DNA from: Sphingomonadaceae bacterium
GTDB taxonomy: Bacteria; Pseudomonadota; Alphaproteobacteria; Sphingomonadales; Sphingomonadaceae
NCBI GenBank assembly: GCA_947477745.1
Contig: CANJUF010000025.1
Coordinates: 1-45,359 of the forward strand
Reading direction: 5' to 3'
DNA length: 45,359 nucleotides
The notes under the pieces were generated by a model, which did no database searches, was not told the DNA's origin, and was given only the letters and a program-made list of their open reading frames with translations. Made by a program: the position numbers and the translations under genes. How positions within the stretch are numbered: the stretch's first letter is position 1; each line of letters opens with the position of its first letter. Positions 706 to 44,709 of the stretch are shown piece by piece.

Positions 706-3729
<3,024 letters not shown>

Positions 3730-3847
3730 GGCGGAGATGTGGGGCCTTGGGTTGCACGAGTCCAGCCGCCCTGAAGGGAAAGCGGAGGACGGACCAATGT
3801 TCCACATATGTTCGGAGCGGGCAAGGGGCGCGGGCGATGGAGTTTTC

Positions 3848-3873
3848 GTCATTCCCGCGAATGCGGGAATCCA
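3848..3873. repeat. short palindrome (ATTCCCGC type) upstream of uvrA
   Basis: ATTCCCGC (3851-3858), loop GAAT, GCGGGAAT (3863-3870), flanked by CGTC and CCAG. This is the same type as the pair at 44631-44709 and sits in the 170-base gap between the start of uvrA and the end of the broken gene at 3900. Confidence 0.8.
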
Positions 3874-3899
3874 GACTTCGGAGCGGACCAAACAAATCG

Positions 3900-14675: not shown

Positions 14676-15566
14676 ATGTCCATCCTCGTAGACAAGAACA
14701 CCAAGGTCATCACTCAGGGGATGACCGGCAACACCGGCAGCTTCCATACCCAGGCAGCGCTCGATTACGGCACCAAGATGGTCGCGGGCGTGACCCCCGG
14801 CAAAGGCGGCACCGAATTCCTCGGCCTGCCCCAGTTCAACACGGTGGCCGAGGCGAAGGCGGCGACCGACGCGACCGCATCGTGCATCTATGTTCCGCCG
14901 CCGTTTGCCGCCGATGCGATCATGGAAGCGATCGACGCCGAGATCGAGCTTATCGTGACCATCACCGAGGGCATCCCGGTGCTCGACATGATCCCGGTGA
15001 AGCGCGCGCTGTCGGGCTCGAAGTCACGGCTGATCGGCCCCAACTGCCCCGGCGTGCTCACGCCCGGCGAATGCAAGATCGGCATCATGCCCGGCAGCAT
15101 TTTCTCCAAGGGTTCGGTCGGCGTCGTCAGCCGCTCGGGAACATTGACCTATGAAGCGGTGTTCCAGACCACCAACGCCGGCCTGGGCCAGACCACCGCA
15201 GTCGGCATCGGCGGCGATCCGGTCAACGGCACCAATTTCATCGACGTGCTCGAACTGTTCATGGCTGACGAGGCGACCAGGTCGATCATCATGATCGGCG
15301 AGATCGGCGGCTCGGCCGAGGAAGAGGCCGCGCAGTTCATCAAGGACGAGGCAAAGCGCGGCCGCAGCAAGCCGATGGTCGGCTTCATCGCCGGGCGCAC
15401 AGCGCCTCCGGGTAGGCGGATGGGCCACGCGGGCGCGATCGTCTCGGGCGGTCAGGGCGGCGCCGAGGACAAGATCGAGGCGATGGAAAGCGCGGGCATT
15501 CGCGTTTCCCCTTCGCCCAGCGAATTGGGCACCACGCTCGACGCGCTGCTTAAGGAAATTGCCTGA
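14676..15566 (+). CDS. sucD: succinyl-CoA ligase subunit alpha
   Basis: This subunit binds CoA and carries the phosphohistidine in the substrate-level phosphorylation step of the TCA cycle. The 296-residue product starts [20 protein letters not shown], has [31 protein letters not shown] and the nucleotide-linked [10 protein letters not shown]. It ends with the active-site loop [17 protein letters not shown], His251. ATG at 14676 was chosen because the family begins MSILVDKNT; the extension to 14595 translates the AT-rich spacer in another frame. The partner beta subunit (sucC), often just upstream, is absent from the window, so it must be encoded elsewhere. Confidence 0.97.
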
Positions 15567-15569
15567 CGC

Positions 15570-15593
15570 GAGTCCCTGCGCAGGCAGGGACCT
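15570..15593. repeat. oriented palindrome, left of the GIY-YIG gene
   Basis: GAGTCCCTGC, four bases, GCAGGGACCT. The stem is GTCCCTGC (15572-15579) with GCAGGGAC (15584-15591). It is the exact reverse complement of the unit at 20179-20202 and 23 of 24 bases match the reverse complement of 15985-16008. It starts four bases after the sucD stop. Confidence 0.85.
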
Positions 15594-15613
15594 CGTAGAA
15601 TTGCGGAGCAGGG

Positions 15614-15904
15614 GTGAAACCTGGTTTTGTCTATATTCTGACCAATCGTCGCGAGGGAGTGCTCTACATCGGCGTCACCAGCGACCTTGGCGCGCGGATT
15701 GGGCAACACAGAGAAGGGGCTGTCCCCGGTTTTGCGAAGATATACAATTTTCACAGGCTGGTCTGGTTCGAACGGCACGACGATTTGCAAGGCGCGAGAA
15801 CGGCCGAAGTGCGAATGAAGCGTTGGAAGCGAGATTGGAAAATCAGGCGGATCGTCGAACGGAACCCCGACTGGGATGATTTGGTTGATCAGTTAAATTG
15901 TTAG
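15614..15904 (+). CDS. GIY-YIG family endonuclease
   Basis: The 96-residue single-domain nuclease has FVYILTN (5-11) and LYIGVTSDL (17-25) as the two GIY/YIG strands, Arg28 and QHREG after them, and a Glu (65) in ARTAEVRMKRWKRDWK. It then ends without any DNA-binding extension. This is the small UPF0213/YhbQ-like form whose biological role is mostly unknown; the domain cuts DNA with a single metal. Start GTG at 15614 has GGAG nearby. It sits between sucD and sucA, two core genes, and is bracketed by near-identical inverted palindromes (15570-15593 and 15985-16008), which makes it look like a mobile passenger or mobiliser. Confidence 0.9.
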   Translation: MKPGFVYILTNRREGVLYIGVTSDLGARIGQHREGAVPGFAKIYNFHRLVWFERHDDLQGARTAEVRMKRWKRDWKIRRIVERNPDWDDLVDQLNC

Positions 15905-15950
15905 GCCTGACGGCGACAGGTTCAGCCTGCGCAAGGGCTCGGGAGGGTGC

Positions 15951-16008
15951 GCGTTCCTGCGAAAAGCAGGAGCATGTTGCAAGAAGGTCCCTGCCTACGC
16001 AGGGACTC
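15951..16008. repeat. inverted palindrome pair upstream of sucA
   Basis: The first unit is TCCTGC (15955-15960), GAAAA, GCAGGA (15966-15971). The second is GTCCCTGC (15987-15994), CTAC, GCAGGGAC (15999-16006). The nine bases between the units, GTTGCAAGA, resemble the spacer of the pair upstream of lpdA. The pair ends 16 bases before the sucA start. Confidence 0.85.
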
Positions 16009-16024: not shown

Positions 16025-18883
16025 ATGGGCAACGAAAATCTCGAGTTTCTGCCGGACGCCGAGGATCAGGGGCCGCAGCCCGGACCAAGCTGGCAGCACG
16101 CTGGATGGCCGCTGGTCGGCGGCGCGGACGAGGATGAGCTGACTCAAGCGCTCGATCCCACCGCCTTGAAGGCGCTGGTCGCCGAGGCCGCTGCCCAGCC
16201 CGGCGCACCCATTGACGAGACCCGGATCGAGCAGGCCGCAGCCGATTCCATCCAAGCGATGATGATGATCCGCACCTATCGCTCGCGCGGGCATCTGGCA
16301 GCCAATCTCGATCCGCTCGGCCTCGGGCGCTCCGATCTGCCGCCCGATCTCACCCCCGATTTCCACGGCTTCACCGAAGACAAGCTCGACCGACCGGTTT
16401 TCGTCGGCGGCGCTTTGGGCCTCACATGGGTCACGGTGCGCGATCTGGTCGATATCCTGCGGTCAAACTACTGCGGCAATGTCGGTTTCGAATACATGCA
16501 CATCGCCGATGTCGAGGAGCGTCGCTGGCTGCAGGAGCGGATCGAAGGCGCCGACAAGACCATCGACTTCACCCTGATGGGCAAGAAGGCGATCCTTTCG
16601 GCCGTGATCCGCGGCGAGGAATACGAAAGCTACCTTGGCCGCAAGTACGTCGGCACCAAGCGCTTCGGGCTCGACGGCGGCGAATCGATGATCCCTGCGC
16701 TTGAATCGGTAATCAAACGCGGCAGCCAGCTTGGCGTGAAGGAAATCGTCTTCGGCATGGCCCACCGCGGGCGCCTCAACGTCCTCGCGAACGTCATGGC
16801 CAAGCCCTACAAGGTCATCTTCCACGAGTTCTCGGGCGGCAGCGCCAATCCCGACGATGTCGGCGGATCGGGCGACGTCAAGTACCACCTCGGGACTTCG
16901 ACTGACCGCGAGTTCGACGGGCTCACCGTGCACATGAGCCTGGTGCCCAATCCCAGCCACCTCGAAACCGTCGATCCCGTAGTGCTCGGCAAAGTGCGCG
17001 CGACGCTCCAGCTGCGCGACGACATTGCCGAAATGGACGAAGTGCTGCCCGTGCTGATTCACGGCGACGCCGCATTCGCCGGACAAGGCATCGTCTGGGA
17101 GACGCTCGGCTTCCAGGGCATTCGCGGCTACGCCACTGGCGGCTGCATCCATTTCATCATCAACAACCAGATCGGCTTCACCACCAGCCCGCAGTTCGCG
17201 CGCAATTCGCCATATCCGTCCGACGTTGCAAAGGCGGTCCAGTCGCCGATCTTCCACGTCAACGGCGACGATCCCGAAGCGGTCACCTTCTGCTGCAAGC
17301 TCGCCATCGAATATCGCCAGAAGTTCGACAAGGACGTGGTGATCGACATGTGGTGCTATCGCCGCTTCGGCCACAACGAGGGCGACGAGCCGAGCTTCAC
17401 CCAACCGCTGATGTACGCCAAGATCCGCGAGCACCCGCGCGTGAGCGAGATCTACGCGCAAAGGCTCGTCGACCAGGGCGTGATCGAGGCGGAGTTCCAT
17501 GCGCAGTGCCGCGATGAATTCGTGGCCTCGCTCGACGAGAGCTTCGAGGCGGCCAAAAGCTACTTGCCCAACGAGGCTGACTGGTTCGCCGGGCGCTGGA
17601 GCGGCTTCAACAAGCCGGTCGATCCCGAGACCGCGCGGCGCAACGTACCCACCGGCATCGAAGCCAAGCTGTTCGACAGCCTCGGCCGCACCTTGACCAC
17701 GGTTCCCGCCGATCTCGAAATCCACAAGACGCTGGCCCGCGTAATCGATGCCAAGCGCAAGATGTTCGAGGACGGCGAGGGCTTCGACTGGGCGACTGGC
17801 GAGGCGCTGGGCTTTGGCTCGCTGCTTTCGGAAGGCTACAATGTCCGCCTGTCAGGCCAGGATTCAGGGCGCGGCACATTCAGCCAGCGCCATGCGGTCT
17901 GGCTCGACCAGCGCGACGAGCGCCGCTACGTCCCGCTCGCCAGCGTGCCGCACGGCAGGTTCGAGGTCTATGACAGTCCGCTGAGCGAATACGGCGTGCT
18001 CGGATTCGAATATGGCTATGCCATGACCGACCCCAAGACGCTGGTCCTGTGGGAGGCGCAGTTTGGCGATTTCGCCAATGGCGCGCAGATCATCATCGAT
18101 CAGTATATCGCCGCTTCGGAGGCCAAGTGGCTGCGCGCCAACGGTCTCGTGCTGCTGCTCCCGCACGGTTATGAGGGCCAAGGGCCGGAGCATAGCTCGG
18201 CGCGGCTCGAACGCTTCCTGCAGCTTTGCGCGCAGGACAATATCCAGGTGTGCAACATCACCACCCCGGCGAACTATTTCCACGTGCTGCGCCGCCAGAT
18301 GCACCGCCCGTTCCGCAAGCCGCTGGTAATCATGACTCCCAAGTCGCTGCTGCGCCATCCGATGGCCAAGAGCGCGACCACCGATTTCGTCGGCGAGGGG
18401 CACTTCATGCGCATTCTTTCCGACCCGGCGCCGCCCGAGGACAAGAAGGTGCGCCGCCTGGTGCTGTGTTCGGGCAAAGTCGCTTACGACCTGATCGAGG
18501 CGCGCGACGCGGCGGGTCTGGACAATGTCTCGATCGTCCGGCTCGAACAGCTCTATCCCTTCCCCGGCGAGCCGCTGGCGCTGCGCCTCTCGCGCATGAC
18601 CGAGCTCAAGGAAGTGGTTTGGTGCCAGGAGGAACCGCGCAACAACGGCGCCTGGTTCTTCGTGCGCAGCCAGATCGAGGATGTACTCGAACAGGCGGGC
18701 CGCAAGGTCGGGCGGCTGGCTTATGCCGGACGCGACGCCAGCGCCTCGCCCGCGACCGGCCTCGCCATCCGCCACAAGCAGCAGCAGGAAGCGCTGATTG
18801 CCGATGCGCTGGGACTTCCCGCCGGCAAGGCCGCGCCAGCCGCAGCACCGAAGAAGCCAACACGGAAAGCAGCACGATCATGA
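16025..18883 (+). CDS. sucA: 2-oxoglutarate dehydrogenase E1 component
   Basis: This thiamine-diphosphate enzyme decarboxylates 2-oxoglutarate and transfers the succinyl group to the E2 lipoyl arm. The 952-residue length is close to the family's ~930-990. Visible blocks are the N-terminal E2-binding segment ([13 protein letters not shown]), [97 protein letters not shown] and [20 protein letters not shown]. The ATG at 16025 follows GAGAGAA; the open frame upstream to 15947 is palindrome sequence. The C-terminal tail is Ala/Lys-rich. Its stop overlaps the sucB start (ATGA), so E1 and E2 are coupled. Confidence 0.98.
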
Positions 18884-20145: not shown

Positions 20146-20202
20146 GCGCTCCTGCGAAGGCAGGAGCCTTCTGCAAGGAGGTCCCTGCCTGCGCAGGGAC
20201 TC
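20146..20202. repeat. inverted palindrome pair upstream of lpdA
   Basis: First unit GCTCCTGC (20148-20155), GAAG, GCAGGAGC (20160-20167). Second unit GTCCCTGC (20181-20188), CTGC, GCAGGGAC (20193-20200). The spacer contains AAGGAGG immediately before the second hairpin, which itself ends 16 bases before the lpdA ATG. Layout and sequence closely follow the pair upstream of sucA. Confidence 0.85.
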
Positions 20203-26403: not shown

Positions 26404-26484
26404 CGGTCCCTGCGACCCCTAGCGAATGCAGGGTTCTCGTCCACTCGGATGCCAAAGCGAGGCCCCTGCCTTCGCAGGGGTCTC
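26404..26484. repeat. palindrome pair between rplQ and rpoA (one decayed)
   Basis: The right unit is intact: GCCCCTGC (26462-26469), CTTC, GCAGGGGT (26474-26481). The left unit has GTCCCTGC (26406-26413) with GCAGGG (26428-26433), separated by 14 bases instead of four, so it looks decayed. The pair occupies about half of the 160-base gap. Confidence 0.7.
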
Positions 26485-30371: not shown

Positions 30372-31739
30372 CTAGCGCAGCCGGCCCTTCAGTTTCGCTT
30401 TCTTGATAAGGTCGCCATACTGGTGCGCCAGCAGGTGCGACTGAATCTGGGTAATCGTATCGACGGTGACATTGACCACAATCAGCAGGCTGGTGCCGCC
30501 CATGAACATCAGGTGCATGCCGGTCTGCGCGAGGAAATATTCGGGCACCACGCAGACGATGGTCAGGTAGGCCGCGCCGATCACGGTAATACGGGTCAGC
30601 ACATAGTCGAGGTAGGTCGCGGTGTTCTTGCCGGGCCGGATGCCGGGAATGAAGCCGCCGTTCTTCTTGAGATTCTCCGAGGTTTCCTCGGGATTGAACA
30701 CGATCGCGGTGTAGAAGAAGCAGAAGAAGATGATGCCCGCGGCGTAGAGCGCCATGTAGAGCGGCTTGCCGTGCGCGAGATACTGGTTGAGCGTGACAAT
30801 GACGCCGCCCACAGCGCTCTCGGTCGACATCGACTTGCCAGCAAACTGGGTGATGGTCAGCGGCAGCAGCAGCAGCGAGCTGGCGAAGATCGGCGGGATG
30901 ACGCCGGCGGTGTTAATCTTGAGGGGCAGGTGGCTGCGATCGGCCTGCATCATGCCGCGCTGGGTGGCGCGCTTTGGATACTGGATCAGCAGCCGCCGCT
31001 GCGCGCGCTCCATGAAGCAGATGAACAGGATCATCGCCACGATCAGCACCACCAGCGCGACGATCACGAACGAGTTGACCGAGCCAGTGCGGCCGCCCTC
31101 GAACAGGTTGGCGATGAAGGTCGGCATCTGGGCGACGATGCCCGCCATGATGATCAGCGAAACGCCGTTGCCAATCCCGCGCGAGGTTATCTGCTCACCC
31201 AGCCACAGCAGGAACATCGTCCCGCCGACCAGGCTGATGACCGCGCCGACGCGGAACATGTAACCGGGAGCAACCACCGCCTGCAGCCCGCTTTGCGCGG
31301 AATAGGCCTCGAGCCCGGTGGCGATGAACCAGCCCTGCACCGCGCACAGCAGCACGGTGCCGTAGCGGGTATACTGGTTGAGCTTCTTGCGCCCCGCCTC
31401 GCCCTCTTTCTTGAGCGCCATCAGCGACGGATGGAGCGAAGCCGCAAGCTGCACCACGATCGAGGCGGTGATATAGGGCATCACGCCGAGCGCGATCAGG
31501 CTCATACGCTCGAGGCTGCCGCCCGAGAACGTGTTGAACAGGTCAAGGATGCCGCCGCGGGTCTGGTCGTAGAGATCCTCGAGGATCAGCGGATTGATGC
31601 CCGGCAGCGGCACGAAGCTGAGGAACCGGAACACGATCAGCGCGCCGACTGTGAACCAGATGCGGTTCTTCAGCTCGGTCGCCTTGGAGAAATTCGCAAA
31701 GCTCAGCGAGCTGGCGATGTTGTCGGCGCGTGAAGCCAT
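30372..31739 (-). CDS. secY: preprotein translocase subunit SecY
   Basis: The channel-forming subunit of the Sec translocon in the inner membrane. The 455-residue product has ten predicted membrane segments. Typical blocks are FRFLSFVPLPGINP, MSLIALGVMPYITASIVVQL, LGEQITSRGIGNGVSLIIMA, AQRRLLIQYPKRA and FFCFFYTAIVFNPEETSENL, and it ends with a basic tail KKAKLKGRLR. It follows rplO by 164 bases, wider than usual, with a palindrome pair in the gap. Confidence 0.99.
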   Translation of the reverse strand: MASRADNIASSLSFANFSKATELKNRIWFTVGALIVFRFLSFVPLPGINPLILEDLYDQTRGGILDLFNTFSGGSLERMSLIALGVMPYITASIVVQLAASLHPSLMALKKEGEAGRKKLNQYTRYGTVLLCAVQGWFIATGLEAYSAQSGLQAVVAPGYMFRVGAVISLVGGTMFLLWLGEQITSRGIGNGVSLIIMAGIVAQMPTFIANLFEGGRTGSVNSFVIVALVVLIVAMILFICFMERAQRRLLIQYPKRATQRGMMQADRSHLPLKINTAGVIPPIFASSLLLLPLTITQFAGKSMSTESAVGGVIVTLNQYLAHGKPLYMALYAAGIIFFCFFYTAIVFNPEETSENLKKNGGFIPGIRPGKNTATYLDYVLTRITVIGAAYLTIVCVVPEYFLAQTGMHLMFMGGTSLLIVVNVTVDTITQIQSHLLAHQYGDLIKKAKLKGRLR

Positions 31740-31816: not shown

Positions 31817-31894
31817 GAGTCCCTGCAAAGACAGGGACCTGCAGCCGGGCCATCGAACTTTCTGCGACGAGGCCCCCGCAAACGCAGGGGCGCC
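31817..31894. repeat. inverted palindrome pair between secY and rplO
   Basis: Left unit: GTCCCTG (31819-31825), CAAAGA, CAGGGAC (31832-31838), flanked by GA and CT like the unit at 15570. Right unit: GCCCCCGC (31872-31879), AAAC, GCAGGGGC (31884-31891), with one mismatch. Both CCT ends face inward, as in uvrA. Confidence 0.75.
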
Positions 31895-31903
31895 CGAAAC
31901 CGC

Positions 31904-32434
31904 TTACTTGGCGGCTGCCTTGGCCGCCTTGTTGACGTCGCGGCGTGCGGTCTTCTTCTCGTGCTCGCTCGCCTGTGCGGCAGGAAGCTCGACCGAACCG
32001 CCAGCCTTCTCGACCGCGGCGACCGCGCCCTTCGACGCGCCTTCGACCTTGAAGGTGGCCTTGGCGGTGAGCTCGCCCTTGCCGAGCAGGCGCACGCCGT
32101 GCTTGCCGCCGCGCGCGAGGCCAGCGGCCTTGAGCGCCGCATGGTCAATCACTGCATTGGCATCGAGCTTGCCCGCATCGATGAATTTCTGGACGAGGCC
32201 AAGGTTAACCTCGGCATAGTCCTTGGCGAAGGGATTGTTGAAGCCGCGCTTCGGGATCCGCATGTGCAGCGGCATCTGGCCGCCTTCGAAGCCGCCAATG
32301 GAAACGCCCGAACGCGCCTTGGCGCCCTTCTGGCCGCGACCGGCAGTCTTGCCCTTGCCCGAGCCGATACCACGGCCCACGCGCATACGGCCCTTGCGGG
32401 CACCCGGATTGTCTCGAAGATCGGTAAGTTTCAT
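31904..32434 (-). CDS. rplO: 50S ribosomal protein L15
   Basis: The 176-residue product begins [20 protein letters not shown] and has [40 protein letters not shown] and a C-terminal extension rich in Lys, Ala and Glu ([18 protein letters not shown]) that E. coli L15 (144 residues) lacks. It is a 23S rRNA-binding assembly protein. It normally follows rpmD directly; here 3 kb of opposite-strand genes separates them, so it must start a transcription unit with secY and adk. Confidence 0.98.
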
Positions 32435-44630: not shown

Positions 44631-44709
44631 CGTCATTCCGGCGAAAACCGGAATCCAGCTTCCAGAGCGTAGACTTCCACTCTGGATCCCGGCCTGCGCC
44701 GGGATGACG
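44631..44709. repeat. inverted palindrome pair between rplC and rpsJ
   Basis: Left unit: ATTCCGG (44635-44641), CGAAAA, CCGGAAT (44648-44654), flanked by CGTC and CCAG. Right unit: ATCCCGGC (44686-44693), CTGC, GCCGGGAT (44698-44705), flanked by CTGG and GACG. The ends show that the two are inverted with the GTCAT ends outward. The single unit at 3848-3873 is of the same type. Confidence 0.8.

Follow-up and report, generated by a model that had tools for sequence, protein, structure and literature searches.

A small GIY-YIG nuclease gene between inverted palindromes as candidate partner of CGTC-type REPs

The GIY-YIG gene and its two palindromic arms

The window, i.e. the whole stretch of DNA that was analysed, is an entire contig of 45,359 bases belonging to a draft genome of 3.03 Mb (hereafter G000). 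A small gene coding for a predicted GIY-YIG nuclease sits there in the gap between the end of sucD, at 15566, and the start of sucA, near 16025, both gene names being putative. On each side of the gene stands a palindromic unit with an 8-bp stem and a 4-nt loop, the right unit being the inverse of the left one with 23 of 24 bases alike (Table 1). The arrangement given in a preliminary description of this DNA, namely a 96-residue nuclease gene between sucD and sucA with such inverted 24-base units around it, was thus recovered with exact coordinates. The right flank is, in addition, a heterodimer, a feature absent from that description, whose internal member matches a gene-less dimer located elsewhere in the window.

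PF01541 is the sole Pfam domain matched by the protein, with 45.1 bits for a cut-off of 22.6, and no NCBIfam model matches it at E<=0.01. In an alignment of 23 homologues, Y7, Y18, G20, H32, E65, and N84 are invariant and R28 is nearly so; the Pfam match and the conserved GIY, YIG, Arg, Glu, and Asn positions place the protein in the GIY-YIG superfamily. The AF2 model of the 96 residues has a pLDDT of 88.3, and its nearest folds are UPF0213, Slx1, and UvrC nuclease domains, the best match being the UPF0213 protein BH0048 (1zg2; E 1.6e-3, TM 0.56) and none falling below 1e-3.

Table 1. Palindromic units and nuclease gene in the window
Feature	Position	Strand	Remarks
Gene-less pair inside uvrA (frame 706-3891, minus strand)	2895-2966		Reading frame kept; second member degenerate
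Canonical CGTC-tagged REP (cgtcATTCCCGCgaatGCGGGAATccag)	3847-3874	+
Left palindrome unit GAGTCCCTGC-GCAG-GCAGGGACCT	15570-15593	+	Tag side outward; DNA hairpin z -3.76 (single-strand fold)
GIY-YIG gene, predicted nuclease, 96 aa	15614-15904	+	GTG start; PF01541 match
Degenerate internal unit of right-hand heterodimer	about 15953-15975	+	Found by eye; same spacer as the dimer at ~20146-20202
Right palindrome unit AGGTCCCTGC-CTAC-GCAGGGACTC	15985-16008	-	DNA hairpin z -5.75 (single-strand fold)
Gene-less heterodimer, 3' of the gene after sucA	~20146-20202		Core search and inspection
Gene-less degenerate pair between secY (30372-31739) and rplO (31904-32434)	~31817-31893		Second member degenerate
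Canonical CGTC-tagged REP, reverse	44682-44709	-

Further units in the window and in the genome

The core GTCCCTGCN4GCAGGGAC, with at most two mismatches, occurs six times in the window, where a mean of 0.02 is expected and none of 100 shuffles reaches six. Genome-wide, 22 exact and four one-mismatch copies were counted, the reversed control pattern giving none. The gene-less inverted pairs already noticed in uvrA and between secY and rplO are both real, one member of each being degenerate, and the uvrA pair is missing in the closest relative found, G447. Another pair of units, strongly degenerate, was seen at 26404-26480. Elsewhere in the genome, a long ORF, presumably glyS (L020, G000:C34:7900-9000), contains in-frame units at two sites, where they add short peptides such as VPASAGT. 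Besides, a stretch of about 350 bases adjacent to units is seemingly repeated in inverse orientation at L019 (G000:C7:33600-34700) and L022 (G000:C46:1600-2400), and may be a larger repeat with units at its end.

Three places of the genome match PF01541: the window gene, a 660-codon frame that is taken for UvrC, and a copy with an internal stop on contig C7 (L021, G000:C7, ~66800-68000). The latter lies between inverted CGTC-tagged palindromes of another type (CGTCATGCTGAAC..GTTTCAGCATCC), which suggested that each nuclease has a palindrome of its own.

Relation of the window unit to CGTC REPs

Di Nocera et al. (2013, PMC3733652) characterize CGTC REPs by a CGTC tag, a stem of 8-9 bp, a loop of 4-5 nt, and mostly a CCA tail. 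They are reported there as predominantly head-to-head dimers, with individual units also located within genes, e.g. those of UvrABCD, and as occurring mainly in Alphaproteobacteria but in five phyla overall, with Neisseria dRS3 and Rickettsia RPE-4 and RPE-6 among them and with S. meliloti, A. lipoferum, and the Neisseriae among the named hosts. According to the paper, these REPs "apparently lack a dedicated transposase"; its authors searched for genes of RAYTs or other transposases with CGTC units on their flanks and found none.

The window unit shares with this family the 8-bp stem, the 4-nt loop, and an unpaired tag and tail, as well as the head-to-head pairing, the presence of units in uvrA-type genes, and the company of canonical units in the window itself. 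Eleven of the 12 close unit pairs in the related genome G484 have their tags outward, and gene-internal pairs are found in uvrA and in an mtaB-like gene. Whereas CGTC REPs have CGTC, TGTC, or CCTC as tag and CCA as tail, the window unit has a diverged tag, GAG, and a diverged tail, CCT; the CGTC tag and CCA tail are carried by the C7 copy, by two other window units, and by most homologue arms. Judged by this comparison of sequences, the window palindrome would be a local variant of the CGTC REP superfamily, a link that the preliminary description did not recognise. In contrast to the REPs of that publication, for which it reports no dedicated enzyme, a GIY-YIG gene stands here between the arms.

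Inverted arms at homologous genes

A total of 169 loci of this GIY-YIG family were collected, 166 of them with both flanks and corresponding to 159 distinct proteins, and an arm was called when the 300-base flanks on the two sides gave an inverted repeat with a score of 15 or more. Inverted arms were found at 129 of the 159 distinct homologues, the other 30 having none at this threshold. In the same loci, arms were called in only 11 of 983 control windows, around 5 of 204 other ORFs, and around 5 of 130 ORFs of 60-200 aa, so that the proposed enrichment of matching inverted palindromes at such nuclease genes is borne out. Broken down by origin of the loci, arms are present in 27 of 30 from the family, 58 of 74 from named genome contigs, 20 of 28 from the class, and 24 of 27 from the genus, these loci having been ranked by likeness to the window protein and being thereby an uneven sample of bacteria. 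They also occur on contigs labelled Nitrospirae, Planctomycetota, Omnitrophus, Marinimicrobia, Deltaproteobacteria, and Gammaproteobacteria, for which misbinning is possible because most of them are MAGs.

Of the 134 upstream arms, counted with duplicates, 65 show a CGTC-type tag at the outer end only, 8 show it in reverse only, 9 in both senses, as in a dimer arm, and 52 not at all. In the 59 loci where both outer tags could be read, no target-site duplication was detected, direct matches of 1-6 bases being at the level of shuffled sequences. A control based on mismatched pairs of flanks was dropped, as paralogous loci have long stretches in common. In these 59 loci, G is scarce in the eight bases before the CGTC tag (3-9 of 59 at each position), as is C at the mirror positions past the right arm.

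Arm types and nuclease lineages

The arms of the 134 loci were assigned to types, successive attempts leaving first 21 and then 30 loci untyped. Of these 30, L045, L104, L130, and L231 were typed by hand, L054, L116, L134, L149, and L162 were dropped, and the remaining 21 were put in the GTG class. On the resulting tree of 124 distinct proteins, with 87 CGTC arms (the labels of L047 and L159 being doubtful), 24 GTG arms, and 13 GTGAG arms, the arm type changes six times, versus at least 30 times in each of 500 shuffles.

Twenty low-scoring GIY-YIG loci (about 46-58 bits; L278-L297) were considered as a negative control and rejected, since they turned out to be a second positive: two of them are cut short, and 13 of the 18 readable ones have inverted arms. 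Other ORFs and windows of the same loci then served as the controls. By eye, the arms of this distant subfamily are of another palindrome type, TCCTGAG..CGAAGGA (e.g. CCTCATCCTGAGCTTGTCGAAGGATGAGG), a motif present in none of the 134 arms of the first family, and on a joint tree a single change parts the two subfamilies. Joint inheritance of gene and arms is enough to explain such a co-variation, and what it demonstrates is the unit rather than an activity.

Unit numbers across genomes

The generalised unit GAGYCCCNGCN4GCNGGGRCCT was counted in 59 genomes of the genus. At least two copies were found in four of them, i.e. G484 (38 copies in a genome 68% complete), G000 (20), G474 (7), and G446 (3), and these are exactly the genomes with a homologue above 120 bits, the next best score being 104.5. 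Five further genomes have one copy; in G467, this copy and the resident GIY-YIG gene are 20 bases apart. The unit stems mostly fit the arms of the resident gene, being CCCTGC in G000, CCCCGC in G484 and G474, and in G446 CCCCGC for two of three units, the third being mixed.

At the level of the family (199 genomes), 8 of the 10 genomes with at least five units have a homologue with E<=1e-31, compared to 7 of the 189 others (Fisher 5e-9, kinship ignored). The two exceptions, G092 and G103, contain many copies of the window's unit and no close homologue. Conversely, a close homologue goes with fewer than five units in G065, G100, G122, G149, G157, G158, and G168, some of which have arms of other types. 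Canonical CGTC units are present in 91 of the 199 genomes; where the canonical pattern CGTCATYCCNGCGNANGCNGGRATCCA reaches at least five copies, a GIY-YIG gene at E<=1e-14 was detected in 37 of 43 genomes, compared to 92 of the 156 others (Fisher 0.001, kinship ignored). The six CGTC-rich genomes in which none was detected at that threshold (G015, G018, G032, G049, G136, and G177) may hold relics, or another enzyme. According to the preliminary description, genomes rich in the unit would speak against its proposal if they lacked the nuclease: most of them do have a homologue (all four in the genus, eight of ten in the family), but 2 of 10 unit-rich and 6 of 43 CGTC-rich genomes are without a close one, so that this refuting observation does occur in part.

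Named hosts and same-site comparisons

A tblastn search of a plasmid collection retrieved 33 records, N. gonorrhoeae among them. The gonococcal homologue (L298, 1201-1485) lies inside a dRS3 array, where a stretch of 2,667 bases contains 16 dRS3-like units; its frame is unannotated in the record of the collection. Inverted arms are present at six of the seven named loci inspected, those of S. meliloti, A. lipoferum, Rhizobium CIAT894, two Sphingobium, and N. gonorrhoeae, and no arms were found at the seventh, R. tumorigenes (L304). The current labels of these genes are "putative endonuclease", "GIY-YIG nuclease family protein", and "excinuclease ABC subunit C".

Several sites can be compared with and without the element. 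The sucD-sucA junction, for which the preliminary description suggested looking for an empty state, is gene-free in G447 (SucD 97% identical), where an unrelated gap of 112 bases holds neither gene nor unit, and is occupied in G446 by a different GIY-YIG element of its own. In uvrA, G474 and G000 both have a pair at the linker, that of G474 being of its own stem type, and in the mtaB-like gene a pair of 73 bases makes a net addition of only 54. Clean insertion boundaries were sought at these three sites and were not obtained. Azospirillum, Sphingobium, and Sinorhizobium were compared on named plasmids or chromids. In Azospirillum lipoferum 4B, the element is located between sufB and sufC, and three aligned relatives have neither gene nor REP there. 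No clear empty site was found for the Rhizobium CIAT894 region, nor, among the matches listed, for that of R. tumorigenes L304.

In Sphingobium TomTYG46, TomMM7A, and TomMM15, the element lies beside fnrL, and the same site holds a single palindrome tagged at both ends in TomTYG64 and TomTYG74 and neither of the two in TomTYG72. In Sinorhizobium K101, a similar both-tags palindrome occupies the site at which S. meliloti Ak57 carries one gene copy plus part of another; in the latter strain (L299), the full and the partial copy were seen in tandem between gltA and lpxB. The 223 tagged hairpins of L061-L170 and L298-L313 comprise 209 with a C-type tail, 13 with a different tail, and a single one tagged at both ends. 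This one is the TomTYG64 allele, those of TomTYG74 and K101 having been missed because of a mismatch or another tag. Such a both-tags palindrome would fit an excision scar, and slippage between the stem halves would also give it.

The edges of multi-copy elements were compared for five of the seven matches of G139 and four of the six of G111, and the evidence they provide is mixed. In G111, the likeness between L180 and L181 starts 4 bases outside the left tag and stops at the right tag, and that between L180 and L182 extends further on either side. In G139, the likeness continues about 25-55 bases past the left tag in all ten pairs, and on the right it ends sharply at the tag in four, within about 20 bases in three, and only 150-165 bases later in three. 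Several of the copies in these genomes (L171-L175 in G139, L180-L182 in G111) stand 15-30 bases past a common motif like TTGCGGACGTT, possibly an insertion target or a repeat of a different kind.

Proposed mechanism and alternative explanations

The gene at 15614-15904 and its inverted hairpins are likely to form one element of a widespread family, whose nuclease lineages have their own CGTC-like REP types and whose predicted nuclease would cut, and so spread, the hairpins. From the whole of the analysis, we infer that these nucleases would be the dedicated enzymes of CGTC-type REPs, in the manner of RAYTs but on another fold. In this scheme, the protein would recognise the hairpin via its stem and unpaired tag and would cut at the tags of both arms, extruded as single-strand hairpins or cruciforms, after which host repair or replication would take the segment to a new place or make a new copy of it. 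Gene-less pairs would be moved in trans, as GTAG REPs are thought to be by RAYT transposases. Cutting at the tags followed by copying through host repair or replication is proposed because GIY-YIG enzymes cut DNA by hydrolysis and are not known to join it. According to the titles of the matched structures, Slx1 acts on branched DNA, with which a hairpin or cruciform substrate would fit.

The main rival, which we regard as unlikely, is that of a homing-like hitchhiker, in which a selfish GIY-YIG gene inserts into pre-existing REPs that are spread by something else. GIY-YIG proteins are well known as homing endonucleases, as is also set out in the background of PMC1564403, REP-rich genomes without the gene do exist, and a both-tags palindrome is found where relatives carry the gene. 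However, the two arms of an element are alike and, from genome to genome, go with the nuclease lineage, the unit numbers within one genus track the close homologue, and both-tags palindromes are otherwise nearly absent (1 of 223) and thus not a common target. Quite improbable is a caretaker or domesticated nuclease that would process the hairpins of the repeats, by repair or removal, without spreading them, these being moved by another transposase such as a RAYT. Two of its nearest folds, Slx1 and the UvrC nuclease domain, are those of repair enzymes, but such a caretaker would not need arms of its own at varied sites, nor several copies of which some are broken by stops, and the search reported in PMC3733652 for genes of RAYTs or other transposases between CGTC units gave none. 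As for mere crowding, by which any small gene would often be bracketed because intergenic REPs are common, canonical CGTC units in 91 of 199 family genomes and inverted arms around 5 of 204 other ORFs give it some ground, but it has next to no probability and is refuted as the source of the association by 129 of 159 homologues with arms versus 5 of 204 ORFs, or 5 of 130 when only small ORFs are counted, and 11 of 983 windows, and by six window units versus 0.02 expected.

Beyond the single element, we lean, with some reserve, towards GIY-YIG nucleases being a second, HUH-independent REP machinery, one lineage of which would drive CGTC REPs, including the gonococcal dRS3, across several phyla, and a sister lineage the TCCTGAG..CGAAGGA palindromes. 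Much of the interspersed palindromic DNA of Alphaproteobacteria would then come from small GIY-YIG elements and their gene-less copies. The association provides a candidate enzyme for CGTC REPs, testable with the 96-residue protein and the 24-base hairpin. If true, REP-type elements would have arisen at least twice, on unrelated nucleases, and a role would be given to genes so far named only "putative endonuclease" and the like.

Comparison with known systems

Among the matches listed from the open-licence literature, to which subscription papers do not belong, no title or abstract opening connects REPs with GIY-YIG genes. MITEs and insertion sequences have, like the present element, short inverted terminal repeats and gene-less copies, but here the arms are palindromes in their own right, the 59 loci show no target-site duplication, and PF01541 is the only domain of the gene, the DDE or HUH transposase of those elements not being part of it. 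The UPF0213-type small GIY-YIG proteins, to which the best fold match 1zg2 belongs, are likewise single domains of about 95 aa, whereas the window protein stays outside every NCBIfam model at the threshold given above. GIY-YIG homing endonucleases, of which I-TevI is an example, share the catalytic domain and the selfish behaviour; they are associated with an intron, an intein, or an extra DNA-binding domain, whereas here a free-standing single domain of 96 aa is flanked by arms that are the element's own palindromes.

By sequence comparison, the closest known kind would be the RAYT REPtron. The layout is alike in that a gene lies between inverted REPs, with many gene-less copies, tags-outward dimers, and a REP type proper to each enzyme lineage. 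The enzyme and the tag that define the REPtron, i.e. a Y1 HUH transposase of the IS200/IS605 type and GTAG, are replaced here by a gene matching PF01541 GIY-YIG only and by CGTC or a relative of it (CGTC 87, GTG 24, and GTGAG 13 of 124).
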